This document shows positions 32,797 through 52,609 of a DNA stretch of 64,000 nucleotides, in pieces. Under the pieces are notes generated by a model. That model ran no database searches. It worked only from the letters and a program-made list of their open reading frames with translations, and had not been told where the DNA came from. The translations under genes and the position numbers were made by a program. The stretch comes from Euzebyella marina (GTDB taxonomy: Bacteria > Bacteroidota > Bacteroidia > Flavobacteriales > Flavobacteriaceae), in assembly GCF_014855515.1 (NCBI RefSeq), contig NZ_JACYFK010000001.1, positions 620,001 through 684,000 on the forward strand, read 5' to 3'. The first letter of the stretch is position 1; every line of letters begins with the position of its first letter.

Positions 32797-32881
32797 TGAT
32801 TAATTGAGTTGATATTTTTGTGCACTGTTAAAATAAGTTTCAAATGCCTGGGAAAGAGCATGCTAATCGAAATCGCTAGGC

Positions 32882-36494: not shown

Positions 36495-37869
36495 AAGATT
36501 CGGATTTAACGGGACTAAAATCTTTCAACCCATAATTATGGGCCAAAAATGCAGGGTCTAATTCAGTTTGTGAGATAACGATGGCCGCTCCTAGAGCGGA
36601 ACCCAACGAGGCATCGGTAGTTCGTAATTTCATGCTTCGAAGGTAATAAGATAATAGTTTTATGTACACATCATTATCGCTAAACCCGCCGTCTATATAA
36701 AGGTCTTCGATATTTTGTTCACCAATTGCAGAGGCAATGCTATCGACTTGTAGCAAGACCAATTCCAGCATCAATTGATGATAGGCATGTTCAAATTGAT
36801 CGTATGGTATTGAGGTAGTATTGGGTTCATTCTTGCCCACGATGCTCTTCCATTTGAACATAGGCTCGAAATCTTTGTTGATTTCAAAAAAGGTCTCTTC
36901 ATCAAACTTGACAGTTCTGTGAAAATCGGCAGCTACCCCAAAATATTCTGTAAGCTCTTTTACCTGAAGTTTGTATTCATTGCCCAAGAACAGGCGTGCC
37001 ACTTTAACCGGGCTACCGTCTATTCTCATATTGTACAAACTTTCTCGTTCGATATCCGCCATAGTTAGCGCCCCTTCTACAAACGGATTGATAGATATGC
37101 TCCAAGTACCGGTTGAGACCAACAAAAAAGGATTGGTCAAGCTTCTTACATAGGGCAAAAGGGCCGAAGAGCTATCGTGAATACCAGGACCTACCAAAAT
37201 TTTCTGCCCATCAAAATCGACCGAAACTGTCTTGTTACTTGCCACTAATGGAGGTAAAAGTTTGTCTACCTTCTCTTTGAGTACCCAATGGTGGTATTCG
37301 TTACGTTCAAAATCCCATAAATTGGTATGGCATCCTATGCTGGTGTATTCACTAACAGGTATACCCGTAAACAGATAACTTAAATATTGCGGTAAATGAA
37401 GGGAATACTTGATTTCTTTAAAAACCTCCGGCCGTTCTTTTTTTAACCAATAAAGGTGCATTCCGGTATTGAGCATTCCCATACTCAAAGAGCCCGATAC
37501 CCTCGAGAATTCATCTATAGGCCCATACTTACCATAGAACTCCTCGATAATCTGCTCTTTGATGGGTTTCATGTAGTTATAAAGGGGAGCAATTACCCTT
37601 CCCTCACTATTCATATGCACCAAACTGGCCCCATAACACGAGAAGTTCAATGAACGAATGTCGTACTCAGGGTTGGCAAGCATTTTGTCAAAGGTTTCCT
37701 TTGCCCAATTTTCCAAAGCTTTTAAGTCTTCGGTAGGATATCCATCCTCATCTTCTATCTCATCAAATCGGGCATATTCCCTATAGATCTCTTTAAAGTC
37801 TTCGTTGAAGAGAAAAAACTTCTTATTGGTTCTACCAATATCAAATATTGCGGTTACCTTAATACTCAT
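36484..37869 (-). CDS. rhaB: L-rhamnulokinase (FGGY family)
   Basis: A 461-residue kinase. IFDIGRTNKKFFLF is the N-terminal ATP/phosphate motif of the FGGY fold, GPGIHDSSSALLPY is a central motif, and DLYIDGGFSDNDVYIKLL is the C-terminal nucleotide site. Placement 17 bp after rhaI and upstream of the lactate dehydrogenase-like gene identifies L-rhamnulose as the probable substrate, giving L-rhamnulose-1-phosphate for the aldolase. It is divergent from classic enterobacterial RhaB. Confidence 0.88.
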   Translation of the reverse strand: MSIKVTAIFDIGRTNKKFFLFNEDFKEIYREYARFDEIEDEDGYPTEDLKALENWAKETFDKMLANPEYDIRSLNFSCYGASLVHMNSEGRVIAPLYNYMKPIKEQIIEEFYGKYGPIDEFSRVSGSLSMGMLNTGMHLYWLKKERPEVFKEIKYSLHLPQYLSYLFTGIPVSEYTSIGCHTNLWDFERNEYHHWVLKEKVDKLLPPLVASNKTVSVDFDGQKILVGPGIHDSSSALLPYVRSLTNPFLLVSTGTWSISINPFVEGALTMADIERESLYNMRIDGSPVKVARLFLGNEYKLQVKELTEYFGVAADFHRTVKFDEETFFEINKDFEPMFKWKSIVGKNEPNTTSIPYDQFEHAYHQLMLELVLLQVDSIASAIGEQNIEDLYIDGGFSDNDVYIKLLSYYLRSMKLRTTDASLGSALGAAIVISQTELDPAFLAHNYGLKDFSPVKSESYEK

Positions 37870-37886: not shown

Positions 37887-39167
37887 CTACAAACCAGAAG
37901 CTACGGTATGCCTGCCTCTTTCTTCTATCAAACTTCTTCTAACATCTAATGACCTATATGCCTGAATAGGGTTCAAGGCCCCACCTCTAGCTAGCCGAGC
38001 TTGCGCCAATAGAGGCCTCACATCGGTACGGTAGGCATCTTGCAATAGTTCTTGAGCCAACACCACATCGTTGTTCAGCTGTGCTTGTTTCAATTCGTCT
38101 TGGTTCACCAATAGTGCTTTGGCATAGGCTTCTTGAATAGCCTCTAGTGATTGAACCAAATCTTCAAGTGGATCTTTCACATTGTGGCTCGCATCGATCA
38201 TCCAAGCTGGATATGGGTTCTGAGGATTATTTCTCATGCCATAGACCAATTCATTGAAAATCAAGAAAAGTGAGTAAGGTTTCACGCTACCTACGGTACT
38301 ATCGTCATCGCCGTACTTACTATCGTTAAAATGGAAACCTCCTAACTTACCCTTTAACATCAAGGTCGAAACTATCTGCTCAATATTAGTGTTGGGCAAA
38401 TGATGGCCCAAGTCGACCAAGGTGTATGCTTTTTCACCACAAGCATTGGCAAGCATAAAAGAAGTGCCCCAATCTTGTATGACCGTACTGTAAAAATTAG
38501 GTTCATAGGGTTTGTATTCTATGAACATCTTCCAGTCTTCGGGCAGATTTTTATAAATCTCCTTGAGACTATCTTCTGTATGCTTAAGCGCTGTCTGAAA
38601 ATTATTTTGGCCCGGAAAGTTCGACCCATCGGCCAACCAAACGGTCAAACTTTTAGAACCGAGTTTCTTTCCAATTTCGACAACCTCTATGTTATGGGCA
38701 ATTGCTTGCTCTCGAGGAGGTTTATTTACATTGCTTAAAGAACCGAACTTATAGCTCTCTTTCGCATTCTTCTGGTCTTGAAAAGTATTTGAATTTACCG
38801 CGTCGAATATAAGGTCGTTTTCTGCAGCCAGCTCTTTAATAGCATTATAGTCCTCAGGAACATCCCACGGAATATGAAGCGAAATTGCACCGGCCGTTTG
38901 GGTCAAACTATGAATGACCCCAACATCTTCGATTTTCTGCTCCAATGAAGAAGGTTCACCATAAAACGAAAACCTGCCAAAACGCGTTCCGCCCGCACCA
39001 AGTGCCCAACTGGGTATCGCTACCTGAAAGTCGGACAGTTCACTGACCAATTTGTCAACATCAATATTCTTTTGATCAAGACTATTGGCGAGAAAATCAA
39101 ACTGGTTCAGGTGATTTTCGGCAACCTTCTTATTGACCGATTCTATGTTTTCTTTATTGATCTTCAT
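37887..39167 (-). CDS. rhaI: L-rhamnose isomerase (RhaI type)
   Basis: A 426-residue TIM-barrel isomerase of the Pseudomonas-type RhaI group. ALGAGGTRFGRFSFYGEP, WLADGSNFPGQ, MFIEYKPYEPNFYSTV (metal-ligand Glu), LVDLGHHLPNTN and GFHFNDSKYGDDD (metal ligands) are all in expected order. It converts L-rhamnose to L-rhamnulose. The gene is 15 bp after rhaD and 17 bp before rhaB. Confidence 0.93.
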   Translation of the reverse strand: MKINKENIESVNKKVAENHLNQFDFLANSLDQKNIDVDKLVSELSDFQVAIPSWALGAGGTRFGRFSFYGEPSSLEQKIEDVGVIHSLTQTAGAISLHIPWDVPEDYNAIKELAAENDLIFDAVNSNTFQDQKNAKESYKFGSLSNVNKPPREQAIAHNIEVVEIGKKLGSKSLTVWLADGSNFPGQNNFQTALKHTEDSLKEIYKNLPEDWKMFIEYKPYEPNFYSTVIQDWGTSFMLANACGEKAYTLVDLGHHLPNTNIEQIVSTLMLKGKLGGFHFNDSKYGDDDSTVGSVKPYSLFLIFNELVYGMRNNPQNPYPAWMIDASHNVKDPLEDLVQSLEAIQEAYAKALLVNQDELKQAQLNNDVVLAQELLQDAYRTDVRPLLAQARLARGGALNPIQAYRSLDVRRSLIEERGRHTVASGL

Positions 39168-39182: not shown

Positions 39183-41279
39183 TTATCTAACAAAGGCATT
39201 GGCCATTCCGCCATCTACATTGATAATGTTCCCTGTACTCTTGTTCAACAAACCAACGAAAGCAAAAACACCATCTGCGATGTCGGAAGGATAGATAATT
39301 TCGTTCATCAGGTTTCTTTTGGCATAATGGGCCGGTAGTTCTTCTACAGAAATACCATAGGCTTTGGCACGACCTTCGGCCCAATCACCTTCCCAAATCT
39401 TACTACCAACGATTACCCCGTCAGGGTTTACGGTATTCACCCTAATTTTTTCACCACCGAGTTCAGCGGCCAATAATCGAGACATGTGTTGCTGTGCCGC
39501 CTTAGCGGTACCATAACCTACGTTGTTCGGACCGGATACCAAACCATTTTTACTGGCGATACTAATGAAATCACCGCCCAAACCTTGAGTACGCATAATT
39601 TTCACGGCTTGTTTGGCCAGTTCGAATTGCCCTTTGACCAATACGTCTTGAAGAATGTCCCAATCTTTTTCCGTGGTTTCGGTCAATGGTTTTGAAATAG
39701 CCAATCCGGCACTATGAACCACGATATCAACACCTCCGAATTCTAAACAAGCCTTTTTATACGCTTCTTCAATCGACTCTGATTTGGTAACATCGCAAAC
39801 AGCATAGGCGGCCGTATCGGATTTATAAGTTGCTACCCCTTCTTTCAAGCGTTCTTCGGCAATGTCTGTCAAAACAACATTGGCACCTTCCGCAGCCAAC
39901 TTGTCGGCAATCGCTTTTCCGATACCTCCGCCGCCTCCGGTAACCAAGGCTACTTTTCTTGAAAGGGGCTGCTCTTTCGGCATACGTTGCAATTTTGCTT
40001 CCTCCAGTAACCAGTATTCAATATCGAAAGCCTCTTGTCTTGGCAGCGAGGTATATTCCGTAATTGCTTCGGCACCTCTCATTACATTGATGGCGTTGAT
40101 ATAAAATTCGCTGGCCACCCTAGTGGTCTGCTTGTTTTTGGCAAAGCTGAACATACCGACACCTGGGTAGATTATAATTACAGGGTTGGGGTCTCTCATA
40201 GCCGGACTATTGTCCCTTTTACAAGACTCATAATAGTCGGCATATTCTTTTCTATATTGTTCAAAGGCAGGTTCTAACTTTTTAAGAACCGCTTCCGAAT
40301 CGGAAAGGTCTTCAGAGGTATCAAGCGTAAGTACCAATGGCTGAATTTTTGTACGCAAGAAATGGTCAGGGCAAGATGTGCCCATAGGTGCCAACCTTTC
40401 CAAATCATTACTATTAATATATTCCATTACCACATCGGTATCACTAAAGTGACCTATCATTCTATTTTCAGAAGAACACAAGCCCCTCAATAAAGGCATT
40501 AACCGTGCAGCCTTTTCTTTACGTTCATCGGCAGGAAGACTTTCTACCTTCTGCCCACCAAAAACCTGACCTTGTTCCTTAATTTTTTTGGCAATGTAAT
40601 CCGATGCCTTCTCAATTACTTCCAAGCTATTGATGTAGCACTCATACGAGGTATCGCCCCAAGTAAAAAGACCGTGGCTTCCTAAGACAATACCGCGAAT
40701 ACCTGGATTATCGTTCAAACATTTCTCCAACTGAAGACCTAAATCAAACCCAGGTCTTTGCCATGGCACCCAGCCCATGGTATCTCCCCAAATTTCTTTG
40801 GTCACCTTTTCACTATCCTTCGCAGCTGCTACTGCAATAAGTGCATCAGGATGCAAGTGGTCGATATGCTTGAATGGCAATAAACCGTGCAAAGGAGTGT
40901 CGATGGAGGGAGCCCTACTATCAAGGTCGTAGATACAATGGTTAAAAAGACCGACCATACGATCTTCATCGTGCAAACCTTCATAGACATTTTTAAGGTT
41001 ACGCAGCCTCTCTGTATAAAGGCCTGCGATACCGGCTCTTGTTAAGGTACCGATGTCGCCACCAGATCCTTTGATCCACATAACCTCGACCTCTTCGTTG
41101 GTCAACGGGTCTTTCTCTATGGTCTTACAACTGGTGTTACCGCCCCCATAATTCGTAATGCGCAAATCGGCACCAAGAATGTTGGATCTGTAAAGAAAAA
41201 GGGCCACTTGATCATCGCCCAGCTCTATAGCCTTTTTTTCGTCCCATAGATAGTTTACGTGTTGAAATGTCTTTTGCAT
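39183..41279 (-). CDS. rhaD: Bifunctional rhamnulose-1-phosphate aldolase / lactaldehyde dehydrogenase
   Basis: The frame is open to an ATG at 41375, but the ATG at 41279 (MQKTFQHVNYLW) is preferred: it gives the usual length of about 698 residues and leaves the predicted -7 element (41321-41328) upstream. The N-terminal half (about 1-430) is a class II aldolase with NYGGGNTSCKT and metal-binding His in VLGSHGLFTWG. The C-terminal half (about 445-698) is an SDR with TGGGGGIG and a YGTAK active site. By family it splits rhamnulose-1-phosphate to DHAP and L-lactaldehyde and oxidises the latter to L-lactate. It is the first gene of the rhamnose operon. Confidence 0.92.
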   Translation of the reverse strand: MQKTFQHVNYLWDEKKAIELGDDQVALFLYRSNILGADLRITNYGGGNTSCKTIEKDPLTNEEVEVMWIKGSGGDIGTLTRAGIAGLYTERLRNLKNVYEGLHDEDRMVGLFNHCIYDLDSRAPSIDTPLHGLLPFKHIDHLHPDALIAVAAAKDSEKVTKEIWGDTMGWVPWQRPGFDLGLQLEKCLNDNPGIRGIVLGSHGLFTWGDTSYECYINSLEVIEKASDYIAKKIKEQGQVFGGQKVESLPADERKEKAARLMPLLRGLCSSENRMIGHFSDTDVVMEYINSNDLERLAPMGTSCPDHFLRTKIQPLVLTLDTSEDLSDSEAVLKKLEPAFEQYRKEYADYYESCKRDNSPAMRDPNPVIIIYPGVGMFSFAKNKQTTRVASEFYINAINVMRGAEAITEYTSLPRQEAFDIEYWLLEEAKLQRMPKEQPLSRKVALVTGGGGGIGKAIADKLAAEGANVVLTDIAEERLKEGVATYKSDTAAYAVCDVTKSESIEEAYKKACLEFGGVDIVVHSAGLAISKPLTETTEKDWDILQDVLVKGQFELAKQAVKIMRTQGLGGDFISIASKNGLVSGPNNVGYGTAKAAQQHMSRLLAAELGGEKIRVNTVNPDGVIVGSKIWEGDWAEGRAKAYGISVEELPAHYAKRNLMNEIIYPSDIADGVFAFVGLLNKSTGNIINVDGGMANAFVR

Positions 41280-41320: not shown

Positions 41321-41328
41321 CAAAAATA
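41321..41328 (-). promoter_or_regulatory. -7 element (TATTTTTG) of the rhaD operon
   Basis: TATTTTTG on the minus strand matches TAnnTTTG exactly and lies 41 bp upstream of the rhaD start. No TTG is present at the -33 distance; instead a GntR-type candidate site ends 21 nt upstream. Confidence 0.65.
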
Positions 41329-41339
41329 CATATTACATT

Positions 41340-41365
41340 TCCTGTGAGTATCCTGTGCTGCCCTG
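41340..41365 (-). promoter_or_regulatory. Candidate GntR operator upstream of rhaD
   Basis: On the minus strand CAGGGCAGCACAGGAT (41365-41350) matches sites at the GH106 and GH31 promoters, and a second partial copy (CACAGGA) follows at 41346-41340. The distance from the main copy to the -7 element is 21 nt, the same as at the two other promoters. The gntR gene is adjacent and divergent. Taking the place of the -33 box suggests activation. Confidence 0.7.
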
Positions 41366-41387
41366 TTAGCTTCAAAAAAATTAAAAG

Positions 41388-41407
41388 AGGCCATAAACTT
41401 ATGGCCT
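41388..41407. repeat. Perfect hairpin AGGCCATAA-AC-TTATGGCCT in the rhaD-gntR gap
   Basis: Nine-bp exact inverted arms with a 2-nt centre. On the minus strand it is followed by a T-rich stretch (CTTTTAATTTTTTT), so it has terminator-like form, but no gene ends there on that strand. It could be a second protein-binding palindrome for the divergent promoters or, if transcription starts upstream, an attenuator. Confidence 0.5.
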
Positions 41408-41519
41408 TGCCTCAAATTTTGATTACTTTTAGAACCTACAAAAATGAAAGCCGTTTATAAACATTCAGGGGGTTTAAAACGTTGAACCCTCGCCTATAAA
41501 CTTAGTTTTTGAAGACCCG

Positions 41520-42566
41520 ATGTCAAAAACCCTGAACATAAAAATAAACGAAGCCTCACGTATACCGAAATACATGCAGGTAGTCGATTCGATAATGGAT
41601 AATATTGCTATGGGCGATCTTCCCATTGGCAGTAAAATACCATCTATCAACGAACTTAGTGAAGACCTTCTTTTATCGAGGGACACCATTGAAAAGGCCT
41701 ACCGCCAACTCAAGGTTCAAAAGACCATTACCGCCGTTAAGGGCAAGGGCTATTACATTGCAAAGACCGATTTAATCTCGAAGATCAATGTCTTCTTTCT
41801 GGTGAATAAGCCCAGTTCTTATAAAATGCGTATCTACAATTCTTTTGTAAACGGCCTCGGGGTGAATGGCCATGTGAATCTGTTCATTTACCATTGCGAA
41901 GAATCACTTTTCACCCATTACATAGAGCGTAACCTAGGGGCTTATGATTATTATGTAATAATGCCCCATTTTAAAGATGAAAATCTGAACCACGCCTCGG
42001 CCACCGATAAAGTCAAGGATGTTTTAAATAAAATTCCTAAGAACAAACTGATTGTTTTAGACAATTCACAGATTGAAATCAAGGGTGAATACGCTGCTCT
42101 TTATCAAGACTTTGAAAATGACATTTATGAAGCCTTGTTGGAAGGGAGAGAGCGTCTAAAGAAATATGATAAACTGATATTGGTGTACCCTGAAAAAAAG
42201 GTATACCCGTATCCGCGTAGAATTCTAAGGGGCTTTCAAAAGTTCTGTGGCGAACAAGGTTTCGAATTTGAAATCTTAGGAGAAATCTATGAAGACATGG
42301 AGCTTCAAAGTCGAGATGCCTACGTGATCATCGAAGAGTCTGACTTAGTAAATTTGGTTCGGCAGGTGCGAAAGAAAAACCTAACCCTAGGTGAAGATAT
42401 TGGCATCATATCCTACAATGAAACCCCTTTAAAAGAACTTCTTGGTATAACGGTCATTAGTACCGATTTTAATGCAATGGGAGAAACTGCCGCATATATG
42501 GTGCTAAAAAATAAGAAAGAGCGGGTTAAAAATGTGTTTCGTTACATAGAACGAAATTCGGTGTAA
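41520..42566 (+). CDS. GntR family regulator with LacI-like sensor domain (rhamnose)
   Basis: A 348-residue regulator. The N-terminal winged helix (about 1-80) has IPKYMQVVDSIMDNIAMGDL and SINELSEDLLLSRDTIEKAY. The C-terminal part (about 95-340) is a periplasmic-binding-protein-like effector domain (VIMPHFKDEN, IGIISYNETPLKELLG) as in sugar-responsive GntR proteins of Bacteroidota. It is divergent from rhaD with a 240-bp gap holding a candidate binding site, so control by L-rhamnose or a catabolite is likely. It ends 66 bp before the tandem CE12 gene. Confidence 0.9.
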   Translation: MSKTLNIKINEASRIPKYMQVVDSIMDNIAMGDLPIGSKIPSINELSEDLLLSRDTIEKAYRQLKVQKTITAVKGKGYYIAKTDLISKINVFFLVNKPSSYKMRIYNSFVNGLGVNGHVNLFIYHCEESLFTHYIERNLGAYDYYVIMPHFKDENLNHASATDKVKDVLNKIPKNKLIVLDNSQIEIKGEYAALYQDFENDIYEALLEGRERLKKYDKLILVYPEKKVYPYPRRILRGFQKFCGEQGFEFEILGEIYEDMELQSRDAYVIIEESDLVNLVRQVRKKNLTLGEDIGIISYNETPLKELLGITVISTDFNAMGETAAYMVLKNKKERVKNVFRYIERNSV

Positions 42567-42583
42567 AAAATTGATTGTCACGC

Positions 42584-42613
42584 TTGTCCGTTAAGGAGAA
42601 CATTGTATTTTTA
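42584..42613 (+). promoter_or_regulatory. Bacteroidota-type promoter upstream of tandem CE12
   Basis: TTG (42584-42586), 19 nt, then TATTTTTA (42606-42613). The -7 element differs from TAnnTTTG only in its last base. It ends 19 bp before the CE12 start codon, allowing transcription apart from gntR. Confidence 0.5.
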
Positions 42614-42632
42614 GCACTCCTAACCCCACACA

Positions 42633-44132
42633 ATGAGATTACGCATACTTCCGGTAATTCTGCTTGCCGGACTATTTACCTTTTCCTGTTCTACCAATTC
42701 GAATAAAAAACCTGTTCTATATGCCGTGGGAGATTCTACGGTAAAAAATGGCCAAGGCGATGGAGCCGGAGGGCTTTGGGGATGGGGAGAATTTATTAAT
42801 CAATTTTTGGACAGTACCAAAATAAAGGTTGAAAATCACGCCTTGGGTGGCACAAGTAGCAGAACATATCAAGACAAAGGCCTTTGGGATTCGGTTTACA
42901 ACAAATTGAACAAAGGTGACTTTGTTCTTATACAATTTGGCCACAACGATAATGGCCCTATCAATGACGACTTTAGGGCACGGGGCACCATCAAAGGTAT
43001 TGGTGAAGAATCTGAGGAAATCGATAATATTCTCACAGGAAAGCATGAAACCGTTCGCAGCTATGGATGGTACATTCGTCGATTGATCAAAGATGCCAAA
43101 AGCAAAGGGGCCGTGCCGATTGTGCTTTCTCCTATTCCCAGAAATAAGTGGGAAAACCAAAAAGTACTTAGAAACGACCAATCGTATGGCCTTTGGGCCA
43201 AGCAGGTGGCCGAACAGGAAGGCGCTACATTTATCGACTTGAACGACCAAATGGCCCTAAAAATGGAAGAAATTGGGGAGCAAGGCACCACTGGCAACCA
43301 TTTTTTCGAAAGGGACCATACCCATACCTCGGCCAGAGGTGCAGTTCTGGCTGCTTCGATTATAGTCAATGAAATAAGAAATGAAGATTCAGGTCTTGAA
43401 GATTATCTAATCGACTACCCCCAAATAACACTTCCCAAAAAGAAAAACCTTTTTCTTATCGGTGATTCGACCATGGCCGATAATGGCAATGAAAATGCCG
43501 TAGGTTGGGGCATACCTTTTACTAGGTTTATCGACACTACAAGATTGAACTATTTTAATAGTGCCCTTGGCGGAAGAAGCAGCCGAACTTTTATTACCGA
43601 AGGACACTGGAACGAGATACTTCAAAAACTTCAGCCTGAAGATTACGTACTCATTCAGTTCGGGCACAATGATGCCGGAAATATCGATAAAGAAAAATAC
43701 CGTGGCTCACTTAGCGGAACAGGGTTTGAAACCCAAGACGTCGTTCGTAACGATACCCTAACCGAAACGGTGCATACATTCGGCCAATATCTGAGAAAAA
43801 TGGTTATTGAAACAAAAGAAAAAGGTGCATTACCAATTATTCTAAGCCTGACCCCTAGAAATGAATGGCCCGATGGGCAAGTAGAACAAAGACAAGAAAC
43901 CTACATTAAATGGTCTGAAGAAATAGCTACTGAAGAAGAAGTACCCTTTATAGACCTTAGTAATCAGATTGCGAAGAAATATGAAGAACTCGGTGAGGAA
44001 AATGTTCAGAAGTTCTTTCCTAAAGACCACACCCATACGAATTTAGATGGCGCCCTTTTCAATGCCCAGGTCGCGGCAGAGGCCTTAAAGAATTATAAGG
44101 GTTCAGGTCTCAGAGATTATATTTTTTATTAG
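42633..44132 (+). CDS. Tandem CE12 rhamnogalacturonan acetylesterase
   Basis: A 499-residue lipoprotein (lipobox TFSC, Cys19) with two complete SGNH domains. Domain 1: GDST with Ser35, FGHND (Asn105) and DHTH (Asp228, His231). Domain 2 (from about 270): GDST with Ser279, a second FGHND, and KDHTHTNLDG. Both catalytic sets look intact, which is about twice the usual CE12 length. The protein should deacetylate rhamnogalacturonan I. The domains have clearly diverged, so they may attack different acetyl positions (inference). It is downstream of gntR and convergent with rhaM. Confidence 0.92.
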   Translation: MRLRILPVILLAGLFTFSCSTNSNKKPVLYAVGDSTVKNGQGDGAGGLWGWGEFINQFLDSTKIKVENHALGGTSSRTYQDKGLWDSVYNKLNKGDFVLIQFGHNDNGPINDDFRARGTIKGIGEESEEIDNILTGKHETVRSYGWYIRRLIKDAKSKGAVPIVLSPIPRNKWENQKVLRNDQSYGLWAKQVAEQEGATFIDLNDQMALKMEEIGEQGTTGNHFFERDHTHTSARGAVLAASIIVNEIRNEDSGLEDYLIDYPQITLPKKKNLFLIGDSTMADNGNENAVGWGIPFTRFIDTTRLNYFNSALGGRSSRTFITEGHWNEILQKLQPEDYVLIQFGHNDAGNIDKEKYRGSLSGTGFETQDVVRNDTLTETVHTFGQYLRKMVIETKEKGALPIILSLTPRNEWPDGQVEQRQETYIKWSEEIATEEEVPFIDLSNQIAKKYEELGEENVQKFFPKDHTHTNLDGALFNAQVAAEALKNYKGSGLRDYIFY

Positions 44133-44147
44133 GATAAAGACTCAGGA

Positions 44148-44462
44148 TTACTCCATAAAAAAGACTTCCCTTAACGAGGTTTCCACAGGAGAATTGTCAT
44201 CATTGGTCTCCATAATATCTGCCATATAAGCCCACCATTTTTTAACAATGGGGTCGTTAGGAATTTTCGACGGCTCGAAACCATCTTCCAATTTTTGAAA
44301 GGCGAACAAAGTCAAGGTCTGTTCATCAAGAAATATCGAGTATTCATGAATACCCGAATCTGACAATAACTTTGATAACTCAGGCCAAATCTCGTCATGT
44401 CTTTTTTTGTATTCGGCCTCGAACCCTGGCTTCAATTTCATGGTAAAAGCGTTTCTAATCAT
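44148..44462 (-). CDS. rhaM: L-rhamnose mutarotase
   Basis: A 104-residue protein of exactly the expected size. FTMKLKPGFEAEYKKRHDEIWPEL holds the conserved His; the C-terminal KKWWAYMADIMETN pattern is also typical (quoted in parts). It interconverts the anomers of L-rhamnose ahead of the isomerase. It is convergent with the tandem CE12 gene (15 bp) and 97 bp downstream of a GH105 gene, separated from the main rha operon. Confidence 0.93.
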   Translation of the reverse strand: MIRNAFTMKLKPGFEAEYKKRHDEIWPELSKLLSDSGIHEYSIFLDEQTLTLFAFQKLEDGFEPSKIPNDPIVKKWWAYMADIMETNDDNSPVETSLREVFFME

Positions 44463-44559
44463 TTGACACCTTTTTTATATTAAAAAATGAAGGCAAAAGC
44501 ACCCAACAGCTATGATCAAGTACTCTTGCCTTGATGTTTTAAAAAACTAAAATCGACTC

Positions 44560-45990
44560 TTACTTCTCCCCGAATATGGGTCCATCAGTTTTGATTTCGC
44601 TGTCATAAAATTGAATGGCACTATCATTCAATTTAGGATAACTGTTTTGAAGAAGCGCAATCATTTCGGCTCCTGCTAACAGAACCGGCCCGTAGCCATG
44701 GGCCGCATAAACGTTTACCGGCCTATAATAATAAAAAGCGGGATCAAAGCCCATACCGGTACCAACACAAGTACCTTCAACCTGCCCCTTACCGTTCACT
44801 TTTTCAGTAATTGCATTCCAGGCCAACGTTACCGAAGGCCCATAAGCTTTACCATCAACATAACCTCTATTGATAGATCTGGCAATGGCATAGGTATAAA
44901 TAGCGCTTGCCGAAGTTTCAAGATATGAATCATTGCGGTCGAGCAACTGATGCCACAACCCTTTACCTGATTGTAATCGGGTCAACCCTTCGATATGTTT
45001 TTTCAGCAAATCGAGAACCTCAGACCTACCCTTATGGTTTTCTGGCAGAACCTCTAAAAGTTCGACCATGGTCATAATGGCCCACCCATTGGCGCGGCCC
45101 CAATAAAACTCTGGGTGCTGCTCAGAGTCTACGATATAGGCATGCATAAACAACCCTTTTTCTTCATTGAACATGCGTTGAGCGAATTGTAGCACTTGTT
45201 TAACGGCATCATCAAAGTATTTTGGGTCTTTCGAATAACTGCCCATTTGCGCCAAGGCCGGCACGCTCATAAAAAGATCATCGAGCCAAAGGGAGTTTTT
45301 CATAGGTCTATTTCGTGCCAATGTACCGTCTGACAATCTATATTGACCATTAGAAATGTAATCCATAAAATTTCGGATCAAAGGGTCTAAATTCGCCTCC
45401 GAGCCATTGGTTTTGGCTTTGATCATGGCCGCGCATACGGCACCAGAATCATCTAACGCGTGCGGGTGTAAAACTCGCTTCATGGGATGTTTTAACTCGG
45501 CGTTCTTAGTTTCTAAATCTTCAAAAAAGGGCCGTATGTCAGCCAAAAACTTAAGACGTTCATTGGTATAATCGGCATATTTAGATTCTTCGGTAACCTC
45601 ACTTGCCAATAACATACCCGCATAGGTAACCCCCCACTCATAACTCGTTAAGCGAAAATCACCTGTTTGAAAAGCGGTTTCTTGATCCTTCTTTATTTTT
45701 TTATAGTTGGTTATTACCTCTCCGCTATTCTTATCGATCAGGGCCGGCGGGGTAACCGAATTCAGATAATCATAAATTCGGTCGATGACTTCAACTATCC
45801 CTTCTTTGGACGGCACATCGTACGGGGTTTCATAGTCTGGTTGCATTAAATGTAAAGGAGCCGTCATATCATTGGCGGGCTGCTGTGCGCTTACCTCTTG
45901 AGATATTAATAAAATGGTGCCCATTGCTAATATTGATAAGCACGTTCTAATCTTTGGGCCCTTAAAGCAGGATTCAATGTAATTTTTCAT
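44560..45990 (-). CDS. GH105 family hydrolase (long form)
   Basis: A 476-residue secreted protein with a long N-terminus (signal peptide about 1-35, cleavage near VSAQ). The (alpha/alpha)6 barrel has NSLWLDDLFMSVPALAQMG, with the likely catalytic Asp, and FYWGRANGWAIMTMVELLE. It should remove unsaturated uronate from rhamnogalacturonan or related oligosaccharides. It is 33 bp downstream of GH31 on the same strand, with a LacI-type operator 89 bp upstream that lies inside the GH31 coding end, so it may answer to both regulators. Confidence 0.88.
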   Translation of the reverse strand: MKNYIESCFKGPKIRTCLSILAMGTILLISQEVSAQQPANDMTAPLHLMQPDYETPYDVPSKEGIVEVIDRIYDYLNSVTPPALIDKNSGEVITNYKKIKKDQETAFQTGDFRLTSYEWGVTYAGMLLASEVTEESKYADYTNERLKFLADIRPFFEDLETKNAELKHPMKRVLHPHALDDSGAVCAAMIKAKTNGSEANLDPLIRNFMDYISNGQYRLSDGTLARNRPMKNSLWLDDLFMSVPALAQMGSYSKDPKYFDDAVKQVLQFAQRMFNEEKGLFMHAYIVDSEQHPEFYWGRANGWAIMTMVELLEVLPENHKGRSEVLDLLKKHIEGLTRLQSGKGLWHQLLDRNDSYLETSASAIYTYAIARSINRGYVDGKAYGPSVTLAWNAITEKVNGKGQVEGTCVGTGMGFDPAFYYYRPVNVYAAHGYGPVLLAGAEMIALLQNSYPKLNDSAIQFYDSEIKTDGPIFGEK

Positions 45991-46023
45991 GAATTGCAGT
46001 AGTGAGTTTTGTTGAGAAAATTT

Positions 46024-48468
46024 TTATTGGATAACCTCTACATTCAAAGTATGTGAATTGTCCAAATTAGGAATGTAGAGTAATCGATTACAATAATATG
46101 GGTTATTTTCATTTTCTGTATCGGAAACCACTAATTTTTCATTATTCACCATCACCGTTTTTGGCTTTTCATTCAAATGTACCTTTACATTATAGGTGAT
46201 GTCACTTGTATCAAACTTACCTTCGGAAGGGTCAATTTGAATAACTGTACGGTCTTGCTTACTTTCTGCTTTAATTAAAGTAGTGGCAAAATCACCTTCG
46301 GTATATTTCATGCTTTTTCCATCGTCATGATAAAGCTCGAAAGCACTATCACCTCCGATAAAAACTTCCAAATCATAAGAGTTGATTTCTTTTTCCCCTA
46401 CATAATTTATCAGTTCTTGTTTTGGCAATATTCCACCAGCTTTAACAAAGAGAGGCATTTTATCCAAAGGGCAGAGAACGCTTATAAACTTTTTGCCCGA
46501 AAAGGTGTTCCCTGTCCAATAATCGACCCAATTGCCTTCGGGCAAATAGACCGTTCTAGTTTGCGCTCCCTTAGTAGTTACAGGGCAGACCATAAGATTG
46601 TCACCAAGCATATACTGGTCGGTAATTTCGTAGACATTGGGGTCCTTTTGGTAATCTAGAACCAAGGCCCTCATGAGGGGTTGGCCTGTTGAATGATTTT
46701 GATACAAAGTACTATATAAATAAGGCATCAACTCATACCTGAGTTCATCGTATTTCTTAAATATGCTTTGCGCTTCTTCCCCGTAGTTCCATGGTTCTTT
46801 ATAGTTGGGGTGCTCCATACCGAACAAATGCGCGATGGGGCTCATTAAACCGAATTGGCACCAACGAATATAAAGTTCAGGGTCGGCGACATGTTCAAAA
46901 CCTCCCATACAATGGGCCCAATTACCCACTCCTGAAAGACCAATATTCAAGCCAGCCTTAATTACGGGTTCAAAATATTGCCATTCACTAGGCCAATCAC
47001 CAGCGAAAATGTAGGGGTAACGCTGAATACCGGCATAACCTTCGCGTGTTTGGTTCATGCCCCTCATCTTGTTATGTTCGGCAAATTTTTCATAGGGTGC
47101 CTTTGCATAAGCAATAGGAAAAAGATTATGCAGCGCATTTATCTCCTTCCCTTGCGGACCAGTTTTTTCGCTTTCATTTGCCTTATGCCCAAAAGCACTG
47201 CCTTCATCGGTCTTCAAGAACATCGCACCTTGATCGGCCACTCTTTTCACGCCGTTCTTCCACCACCAATCAACTGATTTCTCATCAAAGAAATTAACGA
47301 ACTCGCCTAGGTTGTTCGGCTCAGGATAAACGTACCCTTTACGCCGGGCCTCATCGAGCAACCTTAATTCCTTACCATTGTCAAATCTCGGTCGTAAATG
47401 AAGACCTACCATATTAAGATTTAGCGCATAGAGGTCATTGAACATTTCCTCCGGATTTTTAAACGTTTCCCTCCATTCGAATGATGTAGCGCCCGTACCT
47501 CCATTTTCTCCGAAAATTCGCCAAGTTGAATCTAGATGTAATACGTCTAGCGGTATGTTCAAATCCCTAAATTTTTGAGCCAAAGCAACCACATAATCGG
47601 TAGAGGTTTCTTCTTCATGACCCCATGTGCCCCCACTATAAGTACCCACATGCAGCCCCATCGCAAACTTGGGTAACATTGGGGCTTTACCAGTGATGTC
47701 TGTATACGCATCTAAAATAGAACTGAAGTCTGGCCCGTACATAAAATAGTAGTCTAGCTCGCCCCCTTCAGCTGAAAAGGAGTAGGTTTCTGGGTTACTA
47801 TGGCCCATATTCCAATTTGTAGGGTTGGCATTATGAAGAAAAATGCCGTAACCACGGGTACTCATAAAAAAGGGTACGGGTGAATAATTGGCCTGTAACA
47901 CATCATAGGCGCCCACAATATGAGGCCTACCTTGACCGCGGCCAACATTCAGTCGCAGCGCTTTACCCCGTCTATCCAAAAAATCCATCCGTTCTCCAAA
48001 ACCGAAGAAGTGCTCATCAGGAAAAAGCTTTTTTGTGACGTTCACCGTGTCTTTATTCTTAGAGGAACCGAAGATTTTGTCTTGTTCCGCTTCGCTGGTC
48101 AAAACCTTGCCTTCTTTGTCACTAATAGTTACGAAAAAGGGGGTTTTATGTACTAAAATGTTTAAACTATCAGTGCTATAACTGATAGTCGCTTCTGATT
48201 CTTTGGCAGTATATATGACTTCGGGCCAGTCGTACTTCACCACCATCCATGGTTCATTCTCGGAGAAATCACCATCCCAACTTGACCTTATTCTGACCAA
48301 ACTTGGGGTACAAAATTCTAACTGTACTTTAGCTTCATCCGTGGCGAAGACTATCTTATTCCCATTTTCGGAATCAACCTTCTGAAAATTCCCCAAGCCC
48401 GTTTGGGCGTGGGCTTGAACGATGTTCATTAAAAGGGCCATAAAAAGACCCAATCGTAACATTCTCAT
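46024..48468 (-). CDS. GH31 alpha-glycosidase
   Basis: An 814-residue secreted protein (signal peptide about 1-21). An N-terminal beta-sandwich precedes the barrel; FLKTDEG carries the likely nucleophile Asp, and YIFAGDWPSEW the likely acid/base Asp. NWAHCMGGFE replaces the usual WxHDIGGF, so a conserved Asp is Cys. The family includes alpha-glucosidases, alpha-xylosidases and alpha-galactosidases; the substrate here is unclear, perhaps an alpha-linked side chain of pectin or hemicellulose. It is divergent from GH106, and its promoter carries the candidate GntR site. Confidence 0.88.
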   Translation of the reverse strand: MRMLRLGLFMALLMNIVQAHAQTGLGNFQKVDSENGNKIVFATDEAKVQLEFCTPSLVRIRSSWDGDFSENEPWMVVKYDWPEVIYTAKESEATISYSTDSLNILVHKTPFFVTISDKEGKVLTSEAEQDKIFGSSKNKDTVNVTKKLFPDEHFFGFGERMDFLDRRGKALRLNVGRGQGRPHIVGAYDVLQANYSPVPFFMSTRGYGIFLHNANPTNWNMGHSNPETYSFSAEGGELDYYFMYGPDFSSILDAYTDITGKAPMLPKFAMGLHVGTYSGGTWGHEEETSTDYVVALAQKFRDLNIPLDVLHLDSTWRIFGENGGTGATSFEWRETFKNPEEMFNDLYALNLNMVGLHLRPRFDNGKELRLLDEARRKGYVYPEPNNLGEFVNFFDEKSVDWWWKNGVKRVADQGAMFLKTDEGSAFGHKANESEKTGPQGKEINALHNLFPIAYAKAPYEKFAEHNKMRGMNQTREGYAGIQRYPYIFAGDWPSEWQYFEPVIKAGLNIGLSGVGNWAHCMGGFEHVADPELYIRWCQFGLMSPIAHLFGMEHPNYKEPWNYGEEAQSIFKKYDELRYELMPYLYSTLYQNHSTGQPLMRALVLDYQKDPNVYEITDQYMLGDNLMVCPVTTKGAQTRTVYLPEGNWVDYWTGNTFSGKKFISVLCPLDKMPLFVKAGGILPKQELINYVGEKEINSYDLEVFIGGDSAFELYHDDGKSMKYTEGDFATTLIKAESKQDRTVIQIDPSEGKFDTSDITYNVKVHLNEKPKTVMVNNEKLVVSDTENENNPYYCNRLLYIPNLDNSHTLNVEVIQ
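46080..46091. promoter_or_regulatory. Intragenic LacI-type operator upstream of GH105
   Basis: A perfect GTAATCGATTAC inside the 3' end of GH31, encoding part of NNPYYCNRLLYIP, and 89 bp upstream of the GH105 start. The other sites at GH28 and kduI are also just upstream of start codons, which supports function despite the coding location. Confidence 0.55.
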
Positions 48469-48590
48469 ATAACTGTTTTACTACATTACCGATGTTCCCG
48501 CATCTTCATTGAAATCTAAAAAGCTCAAAAACCGAGCTCATCAAATTTGTAGTCTTGTAGAAATCCTTTGTATATTTTCAAATCGAAATT

Positions 48591-48598
48591 CAAAAATA
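48591..48598 (-). promoter_or_regulatory. -7 element (TATTTTTG) of GH31-GH105
   Basis: Exact match to TAnnTTTG on the minus strand, 122 bp upstream of the GH31 start. It has no TTG at the -33 position, and the candidate GntR site ends 21 nt upstream, as at rhaD. Confidence 0.6.
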
Positions 48599-48619
48599 GC
48601 AATAGAACAAGGGTGCGGC

Positions 48620-48669
48620 ATCCTGTAGTATACTGCCCTATTTTAGGGGCTTGCAGTACAGCACAGGAT
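48620..48669. promoter_or_regulatory. Paired candidate GntR operators between GH31 and GH106
   Basis: GCAGTATACTACAGGAT (minus strand, 48636-48620) and GCAGTACAGCACAGGAT (plus strand, 48653-48669) form an inverted pair, 14 of 17 positions identical. Each arm points to its own gene and ends 21 nt before a -7 element (48591-48598 for GH31, 48691-48698 for GH106). The 16 nt between them also contain CCCTA/TAGGG symmetry. Confidence 0.72.
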
Positions 48670-48690
48670 GGTGGTGAAAAATACCGGTCT

Positions 48691-48698
48691 TATTTTAG
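48691..48698 (+). promoter_or_regulatory. -7-like element (TATTTTAG) of GH106-GH105
   Basis: One mismatch from TAnnTTTG, 34 bp upstream of the GH106 start and 21 nt downstream of the candidate GntR site. No TTG is found at -33. Confidence 0.55.
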
Positions 48699-48732: not shown

Positions 48733-51480
48733 ATGCAAGAACATAAATTGAACAGATTATTTGCGCAATCGATTACTTTATTTGGATGTATACTATTCAT
48801 GTCTTCCTCCGCCATTGCCCAAAATCAATCTACAGAACCGTGGCCCGAGCTTACCCGAACACACAAACCTTGGACTCGCTGGTGGTGGATGGGCAATGCA
48901 GTTGATGAACCCAATATTAAAGCCCAACTCGAAGAAATGTCAAAGGCCGGGCTAGGCGGGGTGGAAATTCAGCCTATTTACGGAGTCAAAGGGGAAGAAA
49001 AAAACTATTTGAAGTATCTGTCTTCCGAATGGTTAAACGCCCTGGATTACACCATCAAAACTGCAGGAGAGAACAACATGGGAGTGGATATGACGCTTGG
49101 TACTGGATGGCCCTATGGCGGCCCTCAAGTAACGCAAGAAGACGCAGCGACCAAATTAATTATCGACACCTTGCATCTTTCTAAAGGTGAAAAAATCGAT
49201 ATGGAACTTCTTCCCAAAAATGAAAAAGATAGAGGTGCCTCTCGTCCCATTGAAATCTTAGCTTTTGATAATTCGGGCCATTATGAAAATCTGACATCCT
49301 TGGCTAAAGACGGCCATTTGAAATGGAAAACCAAACGCAAGGATTACAAGCTTTACCTGTTCTACGAAGCAAAAACGGGGCAACAAGTAAAGCGTGCCGC
49401 CCCTGGTGGAGCTGGCTTGACCGTAGACCACTACTCAAAATTGGCCTTTCAAAATTATGTGAAACCTTTTAATGAAGCTTTCTCAACGCATGGCAAAAAC
49501 CTTCGCACCATTTTCAATGATAGTTATGAGGTGTATGGTACCGATTTTACTCCTAGATTTTTTAAGGAGTTTCAAGAACGTAGAGGCTACGATTTAAGAC
49601 CTTATATTCAGCAACTTTTGAGTGGTAATAACGAAACCGCGAATAGACTGCGTAGCGATTACCGAGAGACATTATCAGACTTACTATTGACGCAATTTGA
49701 CCGGCCATGGACCGAATGGGCCAATGAAAAAGGTTTTCTTACGCGTTTACAGGCTCATGGCTCTCCGGGCAATCTCATCGACATGTACGCGTCGGCCGAT
49801 ATACCCGAATGTGAAACTTTTGGTTCAATGCCCTATGAAATTGAGGGTTTACGAAGGGAGGAAGAAGATATAAGGCAGGGCGATGCTGATGCGGTCATGC
49901 TCAAATTTTCTTCTTCAGCCGCCCACATTTCAGGTAAACAGCTAACCTCGTCAGAAACATTTACCTGGTTACGAGACCATTTTAAAACTGCTTTATCACA
50001 AACTAAACCAGAAGCCGAAGATTTACTTTTAAATGGTATCAACCATATCTTTCTTCACGGTGCTACTTATTCACCAGATCGAGCCGAATGGCCCGGTTGG
50101 AAATTCTATGCCTCGGTCAACTTTAACCCGAATAATACTATTTGGCAAGACGCTTCTGAATTATTCTCTTATATCGCGAACTGCCAAAGTCTTTTACAAT
50201 CGGGGCAACCTGATAATGATGTTTTGCTTTATTGGCCGATACATGATGTTTGGCATGAGTTCCACAACGGGTCCCTCTTTTTTCAATTCAAAATACACTC
50301 GTTAGATGAATGGTTATTGAAAACCCCATTTTACCAAACCAATCAAGAGTTTATAAAAAAAGGGATTTCAACCGATTTTATCAGCGATCGATTTATAGAA
50401 GAAGCTAAAGTCATAAATGGAGAAATCGTGCTTCCAGGAGGAACCTATAAGAGCCTTGTGGTACCTCCTATTGAACATATGCCTTTTGCTACACTCGAAA
50501 AGTTGATTTCGCTAAAAGAAGAAGGGGCCTCGATTATTTTTCAAGATTTGCCGTCGACCGTTCCGGGTTTTTTCGAGTTTGAAAAAAGATGTGAAATGCT
50601 AAAAGCCTTGATGTCCGAAAATAAACTGAAACCAACCACCGATCTTTGGGAAGATTTAAAAATGGCAGGGGTCAAACACGAAAACTTGGTAAAATCAGGA
50701 CTCAAATTTATCAAACGAAAAGTTGAGGGTGAGCAACTGTACTTTTTGGTGAACCATACTGCCCAAAATATTGATGACTACATTCCCATTACAGCGGAGG
50801 CAAAAGAAGTCATTATTCTAGACCCACTTACAAAGACTTTTGGAAAAGCAGCCACTCAAAAGCAAGGTGAACAGACCTTGGTAAAAGTTCAGATACCGTC
50901 AGGGGGGTCGCTATTTTTAAAATCGGGGAAGGAAAGTAATATGCCCACGTGGAATTATTCGAAACCCATCGAAACTGAATATCCGTTAGAAGGCGAATGG
51001 ACTTTGTCATTTATTAGCGGAGGACCGCAGCTGCCCAAGACAACGAAAATTAATCAATTGAAATCATGGACAGTACTCTCAAAGGAAGCCGAGTACTTTT
51101 CTGGTACCGCGAAATATGAGATAGATTTTGAAAACCCCGACGAACAGATAAATCATTGGAGACTTCATCTCGGCGATGTTCGGGAAAGTGCCAAAGTTTG
51201 GCTCAATGAAGAATATTTGGGCGCGCTTTGGTCTAACCCCTTTCAAATAGATATTGACACTCTTAAAAAAGGGAGAAATTCCATTAAGATAGAAGTGACC
51301 AATCTTCCGGCAAATAGAATTCGTGCAAAGGAACTTCGAGGAGAAGAATGGAAAATTTTTCACGAAATCAACATGGTCAACAAAGATTATAAAGAGTTCG
51401 ATGCCACAAAGTGGCAACCAATGCCGTCGGGCCTTTTGAACACACCAACCTTACAACCCTTACAACTCGATAACAACTAA
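48733..51480 (+). CDS. GH106 alpha-L-rhamnosidase
   Basis: A 915-residue secreted protein (signal peptide about 1-30, cleavage after SAIAQ). WTRWWWMGNAVDEPNIKAQ and GLGGVEIQPIYGVKGEE near the N-terminus and VDMTLGTGWPYGGPQV are GH106 signatures. A C-terminal beta-sandwich (about 765-900, WRLHLGDVRESAKVWLNEE) follows. It releases L-rhamnose from rhamnogalacturonan oligosaccharides, which feeds the rha operon. It is 10 bp upstream of a GH105 gene, forming a two-gene unit. Confidence 0.93.
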   Translation: MQEHKLNRLFAQSITLFGCILFMSSSAIAQNQSTEPWPELTRTHKPWTRWWWMGNAVDEPNIKAQLEEMSKAGLGGVEIQPIYGVKGEEKNYLKYLSSEWLNALDYTIKTAGENNMGVDMTLGTGWPYGGPQVTQEDAATKLIIDTLHLSKGEKIDMELLPKNEKDRGASRPIEILAFDNSGHYENLTSLAKDGHLKWKTKRKDYKLYLFYEAKTGQQVKRAAPGGAGLTVDHYSKLAFQNYVKPFNEAFSTHGKNLRTIFNDSYEVYGTDFTPRFFKEFQERRGYDLRPYIQQLLSGNNETANRLRSDYRETLSDLLLTQFDRPWTEWANEKGFLTRLQAHGSPGNLIDMYASADIPECETFGSMPYEIEGLRREEEDIRQGDADAVMLKFSSSAAHISGKQLTSSETFTWLRDHFKTALSQTKPEAEDLLLNGINHIFLHGATYSPDRAEWPGWKFYASVNFNPNNTIWQDASELFSYIANCQSLLQSGQPDNDVLLYWPIHDVWHEFHNGSLFFQFKIHSLDEWLLKTPFYQTNQEFIKKGISTDFISDRFIEEAKVINGEIVLPGGTYKSLVVPPIEHMPFATLEKLISLKEEGASIIFQDLPSTVPGFFEFEKRCEMLKALMSENKLKPTTDLWEDLKMAGVKHENLVKSGLKFIKRKVEGEQLYFLVNHTAQNIDDYIPITAEAKEVIILDPLTKTFGKAATQKQGEQTLVKVQIPSGGSLFLKSGKESNMPTWNYSKPIETEYPLEGEWTLSFISGGPQLPKTTKINQLKSWTVLSKEAEYFSGTAKYEIDFENPDEQINHWRLHLGDVRESAKVWLNEEYLGALWSNPFQIDIDTLKKGRNSIKIEVTNLPANRIRAKELRGEEWKIFHEINMVNKDYKEFDATKWQPMPSGLLNTPTLQPLQLDNN
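48775..48786. promoter_or_regulatory. LacI-type operator inside the 5' end of GH106
   Basis: GCAATCGATTAC, identical to the site at 27085 and one mismatch from the palindrome, begins 42 bp after the GH106 ATG within the signal-peptide codons. If bound, it would act as a transcription roadblock. Chance occurrence cannot be excluded. Confidence 0.45.
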
Positions 51481-51490: not shown

Positions 51491-52609
51491 ATGAAAAGAG
51501 TATTATCATCACTACTGGCCTTATTTGCATTAGCAATGGTTCAAGCACAAACTTTTGACCGTGAACAAGTTCTTAAAAACATGGAATTGGCCAATGCCTA
51601 TTTCATGCAAAAATGGCCAGATGTGGGCAAGACCATTGTTACGAACAAAGAACGTCCGAGTAATATATGGACGCGCGCCGTTTACTACGAAGGGCTAATG
51701 GCACTTTACGGAATCTGGCCAAAGGAAGAGTATTACCAATACGCATACGACTGGGCCGAATTTCATAACTGGAGCTTTCGCTATGGCACGGCCAACCGAA
51801 ATGCCGATGATTACTGCGCCGCCCAAACCTACATAGACCTCTATAACCTAGAGCCCGATTCGAAAAAATTAAAGGCCACCAGATCCACGCTAAATATGCT
51901 TTTAAACACCCCGCAAGTTGATGATTGGTGGTGGATAGATGCCATACAAATGGGTATGCCCGTATTTGCCAAAATGGGTGTTCTTGAGAACGACGAGCGG
52001 TACTATGAAAAAATGTATGAAATGTATATGTTCACGAGAAACGAGCATGGCGAGAAAGGGCTTTTTAATGCTGAGGACGGTCTATGGTGGCGTGATGCAG
52101 ATTTTGACCCACCTTATACCGAACCTAACGGTGAAGATTCGTATTGGAGCCGCGGTAACGGATGGGTAATTGGCGCTTTAGCAAAGGTATTGAGCATTAT
52201 ACCGGAAAGCGCTCCTCATAGAGACCAGTACATCGATGACTTTAAAACTATGGCCAAGGCACTGATTCCCATTCAAAGAAAAGACGGTTTTTGGAACGTA
52301 AGCTTGCATGACCCTAAAAACTTTGGTGGCAAAGAACTGTCGGGCACGGCACTTTTCACCTTTGCCATGGCCTACGGCGTAAATAATGAAATTCTGGATA
52401 GGGACACCTACCTGCCGGTCATTAAAAAAGCATGGGAGGCCATGATAAAAGACGGGCTTCACAACAACGGCTTTCTGGGTTATTTACAGTCCACCGGAAA
52501 AGAGCCCAAAGATGGTCAGCCACTATCTTATGACAAGGTACCCGATTTTGAAGATTACGGTCTCGGGTGTTTTCTTTTGGCCGGTAGTGAAATCTATAAA
52601 ATGAAGTAG
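51491..52609 (+). CDS. GH105 unsaturated rhamnogalacturonyl hydrolase (short form)
   Basis: A 372-residue secreted protein (signal peptide about 1-19, VQAQ). RAVYYEGLMALYG, VDDWWWIDAIQMGMPVFAKMG with the likely catalytic Asp, and SYWSRGNGWVIGALAKVL are typical of GH105 rhamnogalacturonyl hydrolases. It would remove unsaturated galacturonate and expose rhamnose for GH106 immediately upstream. It is the second gene of the GH106-GH105 unit. Confidence 0.94.
   Translation: MKRVLSSLLALFALAMVQAQTFDREQVLKNMELANAYFMQKWPDVGKTIVTNKERPSNIWTRAVYYEGLMALYGIWPKEEYYQYAYDWAEFHNWSFRYGTANRNADDYCAAQTYIDLYNLEPDSKKLKATRSTLNMLLNTPQVDDWWWIDAIQMGMPVFAKMGVLENDERYYEKMYEMYMFTRNEHGEKGLFNAEDGLWWRDADFDPPYTEPNGEDSYWSRGNGWVIGALAKVLSIIPESAPHRDQYIDDFKTMAKALIPIQRKDGFWNVSLHDPKNFGGKELSGTALFTFAMAYGVNNEILDRDTYLPVIKKAWEAMIKDGLHNNGFLGYLQSTGKEPKDGQPLSYDKVPDFEDYGLGCFLLAGSEIYKMK

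Follow-up and report, generated by a model that had tools for sequence, protein, structure and literature searches.

The window, by which we mean the entire 64,000-nucleotide stretch of Euzebyella marina DNA analysed here, holds a set of rhamnose catabolic genes, a gntR gene and two pairs of genes for glycoside hydrolases (Table 1). Downstream of the rhamnose operon and on the same strand lie uronate-type genes (28572-33712) of the altronate/galactarate dehydratase, mannitol dehydrogenase, PfkB kinase and KduI families, which may be read through.

Table 1. Coordinates of the genes and promoter features discussed, within the window
Feature	Position	Strand	Remark
FMN-dependent dehydrogenase	35337..36494	-	PF01070
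FGGY kinase, probable rhamnulokinase	36484..37869	-	NCBIfam score under cut-off
L-rhamnose isomerase-like	37887..39167	-	best NCBIfam scores under those models' cut-offs
rhaEW (RhaD_aldol-ADH), bifunctional rhamnulose-1-phosphate aldolase / short-chain dehydrogenase	39183..41279	-	
-7 element TATTTTTG, rhaEW promoter	41321..41328	-	N19 from 18-bp repeat, N21 from 16-mer
Direct-repeat site CAGGGCAG-CA-CAGGATAC, rhaEW promoter	41348..41365	-	same kind of site in L035-L037
gntR, GntR winged HTH + LacI-type sensor (Peripla_BP_3), 348 aa	41520..42566	+	proposed activator
GH88 Pfam family (GH88/GH105 unsaturated uronyl hydrolase)	44560..45990	-	
GH31	46024..48468	-	
-7 element TATTTTTG, GH31-GH105 promoter	48591..48598	-	
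Direct-repeat site CAGTATAC-TA-CAGGATGC, GH31-GH105 promoter	48618..48635	-	
Direct-repeat site CAGTACAG-CA-CAGGATGG, GH106-GH105 promoter	48654..48671	+	
-7 element TATTTTAG, GH106-GH105 promoter	48691..48698	+	
GH106 alpha-L-rhamnosidase	48733..51480	+	
GH88 Pfam family (GH88/GH105 unsaturated uronyl hydrolase)	51491..52609	+	

A preliminary description of this DNA had claimed three sites that each end exactly 21 nt before a -7 element, and a pattern search of the window confirms them. The 16-mers CAGGGCAGCACAGGAT (41350-41365, -, rhaEW promoter), CAGTATACTACAGGAT (48620-48635, -, GH31-GH105 promoter) and CAGTACAGCACAGGAT (48654-48669, +, GH106-GH105 promoter) are the only window matches to CAGNNNANYACAGGAT with at most one mismatch, where 0.44 are expected and three were reached in 0 of 100 shuffles. 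Exactly 21 nt lead from each to its -7 element, which is TATTTTTG for rhaEW and GH31 and TATTTTAG for GH106. As had also been stated, TTG is absent at -33 from all three window promoters, and in the GH31 promoter it occurs solely 12 and 4 nt ahead of the -7 TA. The description of the three promoters as independent holds in so far as they have their own -7 boxes; the GH31 and GH106 sites, however, are neighbours, lying back to back and 18 bp apart in one common intergenic region.

The motif had been put forward for searches of the genome and of relatives, and both extended the set. In the genome that contains the window (G000, 4.67 Mb), the full pattern with TATTTT matches only the three window promoters at up to one mismatch, the other promoters having different letters in the -7 box. 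Without a -7 element, CAGNNNANNACAGGAT has nine exact matches in this genome, one of them (L012) within a coding gene. All other eight, together with one site with a single mismatch (L016), have TA exactly 21 nt downstream, and L012 as well as most one-mismatch matches were set aside. At least six further promoters of this kind are found in the genome. For the relatives, we searched 149 genomes of the family, each from a different genus, with the pattern CRGNRYASYACAGGAT, which contains no -7 element; the sites are conserved, with 86 matches in 32 of the 149 genomes, compared with 3 for the reversed pattern.

These 86 sites and two from the genus form a set of 88 distinct sites in which the spacing can be read. 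The -7 TA stands at N21 in 79 of them, at N20 in none and at N22 in one, while other distances average 9.07 of 88. Similarly, at least five of the six letters of TAnnTTTG are matched at N21 by 71 of the 88 sites, and by at most four sites at any other distance from 8 to 44. Because these sites were sought without the -7 element, the result substantiates the view that the spacing is hard to explain by chance; in fact, shuffles, reversed-pattern counts and the N21 peak together rule out a chance origin of sites and spacing. A relaxed full pattern gives 270 matches in 31 GntR-carrying genomes and 6 when reversed. The proximal half of the site followed by N19 and TA occurs at 122 distinct places, with N17, N18, N20 and N21 giving 9, 2, 9 and 3, in a set of loci most of which had been fetched with the strict pattern. 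Beyond the order, a genome of another family ("same class"; G348) has five exact full sites and a GntR of 52% identity. Imperfect matches in G028, G552, G566, G588, G610, G668, G673, G677 and G686 are accompanied by a GntR of 39-61%, and we set aside single imperfect matches in G539, G332, G529 and G632, where a search at E <= 1e-10 gave no GntR.

Analysis of the aligned sites reveals an architecture other than the classical palindrome expected of a GntR-type site: the 16-mer is part of an 18-bp head-to-tail direct repeat. The two letters past the 16-mer, which lie outside the search pattern, are conserved as R in 78 and S in 75 of 79 sites, and the site can be read as CAGnAYRS-N2-CAGGATRS, an 8-bp unit repeated with a 10-bp period, followed by N19 and TAnnTTTG. 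Column similarity, many columns being fixed by the search pattern, is 0.85 at a direct offset of 10 and 0.89 at an offset of 5, and reaches at most 0.73 at any inverted centre; the 5-bp period suggests an inner structure within the 8-bp unit. In the genome from the other family, four 10-bp units stand in tandem before one gene (L326, L339), and one more complete site lies about 60 bp farther up. Neither the column similarity nor this four-unit array points to an inverted-repeat operator of the AraR-like type. We also considered a 13-bp dyad, CnGTAC-A-GTACnG, centred at position 7, but rejected it: its score is 0.73, below the 0.85 of the 10-bp direct offset, and it leaves both the conserved R and S after GGAT and the four-unit array unexplained.

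The main-sigma promoter of Bacteroidota has a TTTG/TTG element at -33. At the sites described here, the -7 box has the main-sigma form TAnnTTTG, and the TTTG/TTG element is missing, its place being occupied by the site. Across the 79 sites, TTG is found in at most one at each of the free offsets 17-22 nt before TA, while the offsets 23-25 are barred by the site's own fixed letters, so that the missing TTG is weak evidence for activation. If the -7 box spans -12 to -5, as the extract of PMC9723704 gives it for F. psychrophilum, the two units lie at about -49 to -42 and -39 to -32, with their centre at about -40.5, and the proximal unit fills the -33 place. Judged from the distance to the -7 box, with the start taken from the F. 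psychrophilum box, the site covers the upstream promoter element and lies at a constant distance from the start, as in class II activation.

The gntR gene encodes a protein of the GntR family with an N-terminal winged HTH (PF00392, E 2e-11, residues 18-80), for which the structure model has helices 17-30, 43-50 and 54-66 and two strands after them, and with a LacI-type sensor domain (PF13377, E 9e-9). Its best PDB fold matches are LacI, SghR, CcpA and PurR, and among the chains matched by the HTH region are AraR and YvoA, two proteins designated as repressors. MocR models match solely its HTH part and Pfam detects no aminotransferase-like domain, which places the protein outside the MocR/GabR group. 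Its DNA-binding domain, being of the GntR type, also differs from the AraC, DeoR and LacI types that define the known RhaR classes.

Orthologues with at least 52% identity to this GntR occur in 28 of the 149 genomes. The site is present in 27 of these 28 and in 5 of the 121 others (Fisher p 1.5e-23; like every statistic given here, this value ignores shared ancestry), and the sole GntR genome with no strict site (G117) has five relaxed sites, one of them before rhaEW. The spacing follows the protein in the same manner: of 83 sites whose genome has a GntR of at least 52% identity, 79 show TA at N21, against none of the five whose genome lacks one. The nine sites that deviate are those in G007, G049, G053, G091 and G143, which have no such GntR, and in G061, G132, G142 and G144, which have it. 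Within GntR genomes, 16 of 81 sites, in 14 genomes, lie no more than 400 bp from a gntR gene and 42 lie within 40 kb, the remaining 39 being farther than that from every gntR gene or on a different contig.

We note that rhaEW is found in 33 genomes, including all 28 GntR genomes, and presence and absence consequently cannot distinguish GntR from some other protein associated with rhamnose use. The other five rhaEW genomes have a GntR of 40-45%. In a lenient scan that required the -7 element beforehand, three of these (G022, G081, G125) have a diverged repeat N19 before the rhaEW -7 element; in the same scan a fourth (G054) has a diverged repeat near gntR and none found before rhaEW, and none was found in the fifth (G041). 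With diverged repeats counted, such a promoter precedes 29 of the 33 rhaEW genes (25 of 27 loci examined, plus those of G078, G111, G022 and G081). It was not found at rhaEW of G041, G054 and G144, and in G004 rhaEW lies at a contig end.

Further GntR paralogues have repeats of their own. Those of the galK-linked set (L200-L229) are 37-41% identical to the window GntR, and 27 of the 30 loci contain CTAGTAGG-KW-CTAGTAGG with period 10, while periods of 8, 9, 11, 12 and 13 give 0, 0, 1, 1 and 4. A good -7 element in these 27 loci stands at N16 (2), N17 (2), N18 (4), N19 (7), N20 (5) or N21 (1), with others scattered; 16 of 27 have it at N18-N20, and the fixed geometry of the rha type was looked for and not found. 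In the FGGY-kinase-linked set (L230-L247), where the adjoining kinase is probably xylB, a 10-bp repeat of the CRGAACRG, CAGAACAG type lies at or just before the gntR start, and with at most one mismatch a CAG-type repeat of this period is present there in 17 of 18 loci. No -7 element with five of six letters stands at N19 in 17 of these 18 loci, two of which have TA there; in the remaining locus, L247, three units followed by N19-TATATTTG occur at another place, and upstream of gntR there is a copy with one mismatch. Labels of the two sets rest on the Pfam assignment of five galactokinase and three FGGY-kinase neighbours. In the recognition helix, residues 58-59 are EK in all 34 rha-type or near rows, FK in both FGGY-linked rows and LM, LM, LT and LL in four galK-linked rows, a suggestive fit to the CAG words of the rha and FGGY types as opposed to the CTAG words of the galK type. 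Base-exact spacing is a feature of the rha type alone among the three GntR sets.

The preliminary description had named the divergent GntR as the candidate for the protein bound at the sites. Its co-occurrence with the sites, the nearness of 16 of 81 sites to gntR (400 bp or less) and the repeats of the paralogues all support this assignment, so that GntR is the probable binder.

In the genome containing the window, the putative regulon comprises at least nine promoters, operon membership being taken from gene order alone. Besides rhaEW, rhaI, the kinase and the FMN dehydrogenase, the targets include GH31-GH105, GH106-GH105, a second GH106, two SusC/SusD loci, an ECF sigma-FecR-SusC-SusD locus, a sulfatase-GH78 fusion followed by GH105, and one promoter with no ORF. 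The sharing of one regulon by rhamnose catabolism and the two hydrolase pairs, as suggested earlier, thus appears well founded and can be enlarged. The 79 sites give 77 first downstream ORFs, two sites having none. Among the 25 of 35 families shown for these 77 ORFs are 22 aldolase (rhaEW), 14 TonB Plug, 6 sulfatase, 5 Sigma-70 region 4, 4 GH106, 3 GH88 and 3 GH31, and one each of PL28 ulvan lyase, RhaT, rhaM and FGGY kinase. This content fits the use of ulvan or other rhamnose-rich polymers.

Two loci deserve separate mention. At L164:11051-18001, a regulon-type site precedes genes for an ECF sigma factor, a FecR-type anti-sigma protein, SusC and SusD, and a cytoplasmic sugar sensor may here control a trans-envelope sigma system. 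The gene at L168:9860-13384, downstream of a regulon-type site, encodes a 1174-aa protein in which a sulfatase is fused to a GH78-type rhamnosidase domain.

The site at C3:534594 (-) of the same genome drives no ORF. A candidate small RNA of about 75 nt beyond the -7 element ends in an intrinsic terminator, a stem with a T run (L167:4469-4600; C3 about 534469-534600, -), and 42 nt of it are identical in G000, G001, G002 and G013 (41 nt with G243), while the flanks diverge. Matches occur in 10 of 299 genomes, of which G000, G001, G013 and G243 have the full candidate together with the site, and the other six have short or weaker pieces with no good site. Three relatives' copies gave no Rfam match up to E 1. 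Complements of the 5' end are found at three places in the window with 3 mismatches, where 0.38 are expected. We also observed a piece around TTTGAGTTAGTTT directly before apparent terminators in other places (L315, L317, L321); it is perhaps a recurrent 3'-end element.

We consider it likely, at a probability of roughly 0.7, that the GntR/LacI-domain protein is a rhamnose sensor and class II activator that uses the 18-bp block as its operator. The protein encoded at 41520-42566 would then be a GntR-type "RhaR", of which two winged-HTH copies bind head to tail on 8-bp units one helical turn apart. The proximal unit (about -39 to -32) would stand in for the -33 element, with the distal unit at about -49 to -42, and GntR would adjoin RNA polymerase with the main sigma factor and activate from a normal TAnnTTTG -7 box. 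The trigger would be the binding of a sugar of the rhamnose pathway, rhamnose or a phosphorylated product, by the LacI-type sensor domain. One cytoplasmic sensor would in this way switch on rhamnose catabolism, rhamnosidases, unsaturated uronyl hydrolases and the sulfatase-GH78 fusion, along with SusC/D loci, the ECF-sigma/FecR/SusCD locus and probably a small RNA.

The sign of this control is where the most serious alternative lies. Proteins that pair a GntR HTH with a LacI-type sensor are mostly repressors, and GntR could likewise bind the direct repeat so as to cover -33 and block RNA polymerase until released by rhamnose or rhamnose phosphate. The sensor fold resembles that of LacI-type repressors, the HTH region matches the named repressors AraR and YvoA, the site overlaps the core promoter, and the sites of the galK-linked paralogues are likewise near -33. 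Since these last repeats lie at variable distances, neither a 10-bp repeat nor a place near -33 means activation by itself. For repression, however, the spacing would not have to be base-exact, yet one distance is kept by 79 of 83 sites in GntR genomes whereas the paralogous sites near galK spread over N16-N21; moreover, with the -33 place filled by the site, the promoters would have little strength unless assisted. We therefore prefer activation, as the preliminary description had proposed for the bound protein and as the rigid spacing and the site's replacement of the -33 element suggest, and regard repression as unlikely.

Activation by a different protein is less probable still. An AraC-type regulator, or a hybrid two-component system with an AraC-type domain, might bind the repeat while GntR merely travels with the rhamnose genes, all GntR genomes having rhaEW; AraC-type and hybrid two-component regulators typically bind direct repeats, and B. 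thetaiotaomicron uses an AraC-type RhaR, as far as the source passages go. Such a binder would leave aside that sites adjoin gntR in 14 genomes and that GntR paralogues have their own 10-bp repeats nearby, and no AraC-type domain was detected in the 20 window ORFs scanned (28572-59783). Very improbable, finally, is a reading of the block as a -33-type element, recognised by a specialised sigma factor such as one of the regulon's ECF factors, rather than as an operator. Rigid spacing and position at -33 would suit such an element, as would the ECF sigma gene downstream of one site in the window's genome and the Sigma-70 region 4 in 5 of 77 downstream ORFs. But the -7 box is the main-sigma TAnnTTTG, whereas the promoters attributed to ECF factors in one flavobacterium carry a CGT box in the portions of the literature at hand, and the site follows GntR, its two 10-bp units resembling the sites of GntR paralogues.

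The SusR regulator, the hybrid two-component systems and the pairs of ECF sigma and anti-sigma factors are believed to detect glycans at the envelope. If the activator reading is true, a cytoplasmic monosaccharide sensor would connect scattered loci that serve rhamnose-rich polymers, ulvan for example. We hold it somewhat more probable than its opposite that this extends to a hitherto undescribed rhamnose master regulator of seaweed-degrading Bacteroidota, that is, a GntR/LacI-domain, polymerase-contacting activator on 10-bp head-to-tail repeats that replace -33, through which one cytoplasmic sugar signal reaches the catabolic genes, the secreted rhamnosidases and sulfatases, the SusC/D importers, an ECF sigma system and a small RNA. 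Because the architecture is strict, the regulon can be read from the sequence of dozens of genomes, and activation by a GntR protein becomes directly testable. It would also be a case in Bacteroidota of a -33 element exchanged for an activator site, and bears on how the unusual main sigma factor is helped.

SusR, the hybrid two-component systems and the ECF pairs are the best known for polysaccharide loci in Bacteroidota, according to the parts of PMC3878776 consulted. Among the nearest known systems are the RhaR regulons, for which the comparative study of Rodionova 2013 (PMC3870299) describes, in its excerpted text, regulators of AraC, DeoR and LacI types; the word GntR is absent from its main text as excerpted. 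As in those regulons, a presumably sugar-responsive regulator here lies beside rhamnose genes, and some of them also include genes for rhamnose-containing polymers (excerpts of PMC3870299 and of Ravcheev 2013, PMC3878776). The sites of DeoR-type RhaR are likewise direct repeats, with a period of 10-11 bp (PMC3870299, same excerpts). The present system differs by its GntR type with a LacI-type sensor and by the base-exact place in the promoter. With the MocR/GabR activators it shares the GntR HTH, direct-repeat sites and, presumably, activation; in the passages of PMC5320631 consulted, however, these have an aminotransferase-domain sensor and repeats two or three helical turns apart, compared with a LacI-type domain and one turn here. 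GntR activators on direct repeats are therefore already known from the MocR group, whereas a rhamnose regulon of a GntR/LacI-domain protein with fixed spacing is apparently new, no description of it having been found in the open-licence PMC literature, supplements excluded.

AraR of Bacillus subtilis is a repressor on inverted repeats. It has the same pair of GntR HTH and LacI-type domains, and an arabinose repressor (4egy_A) is among the PDB chains matching the HTH region here; a sugar effector would be a further likeness, and the difference lies in the direct repeats and in their constant distance from -7. A GntR repressor of alginate genes in Zobellia galactanivorans was reportedly described by Dudek in 2020. 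It, too, would be a GntR protein that controls the use of algal polysaccharides by a marine flavobacterium, and is set apart, going by its title, as a repressor and by its sugar. In PhoB-type activation, tandem head-to-tail repeats about one turn apart replace the upstream promoter element in the -35 region. The proposed operator resembles this arrangement in its head-to-tail repeats about one turn apart as a stand-in for the upstream element, but belongs with an unrelated protein family, another sigma factor and another promoter box.
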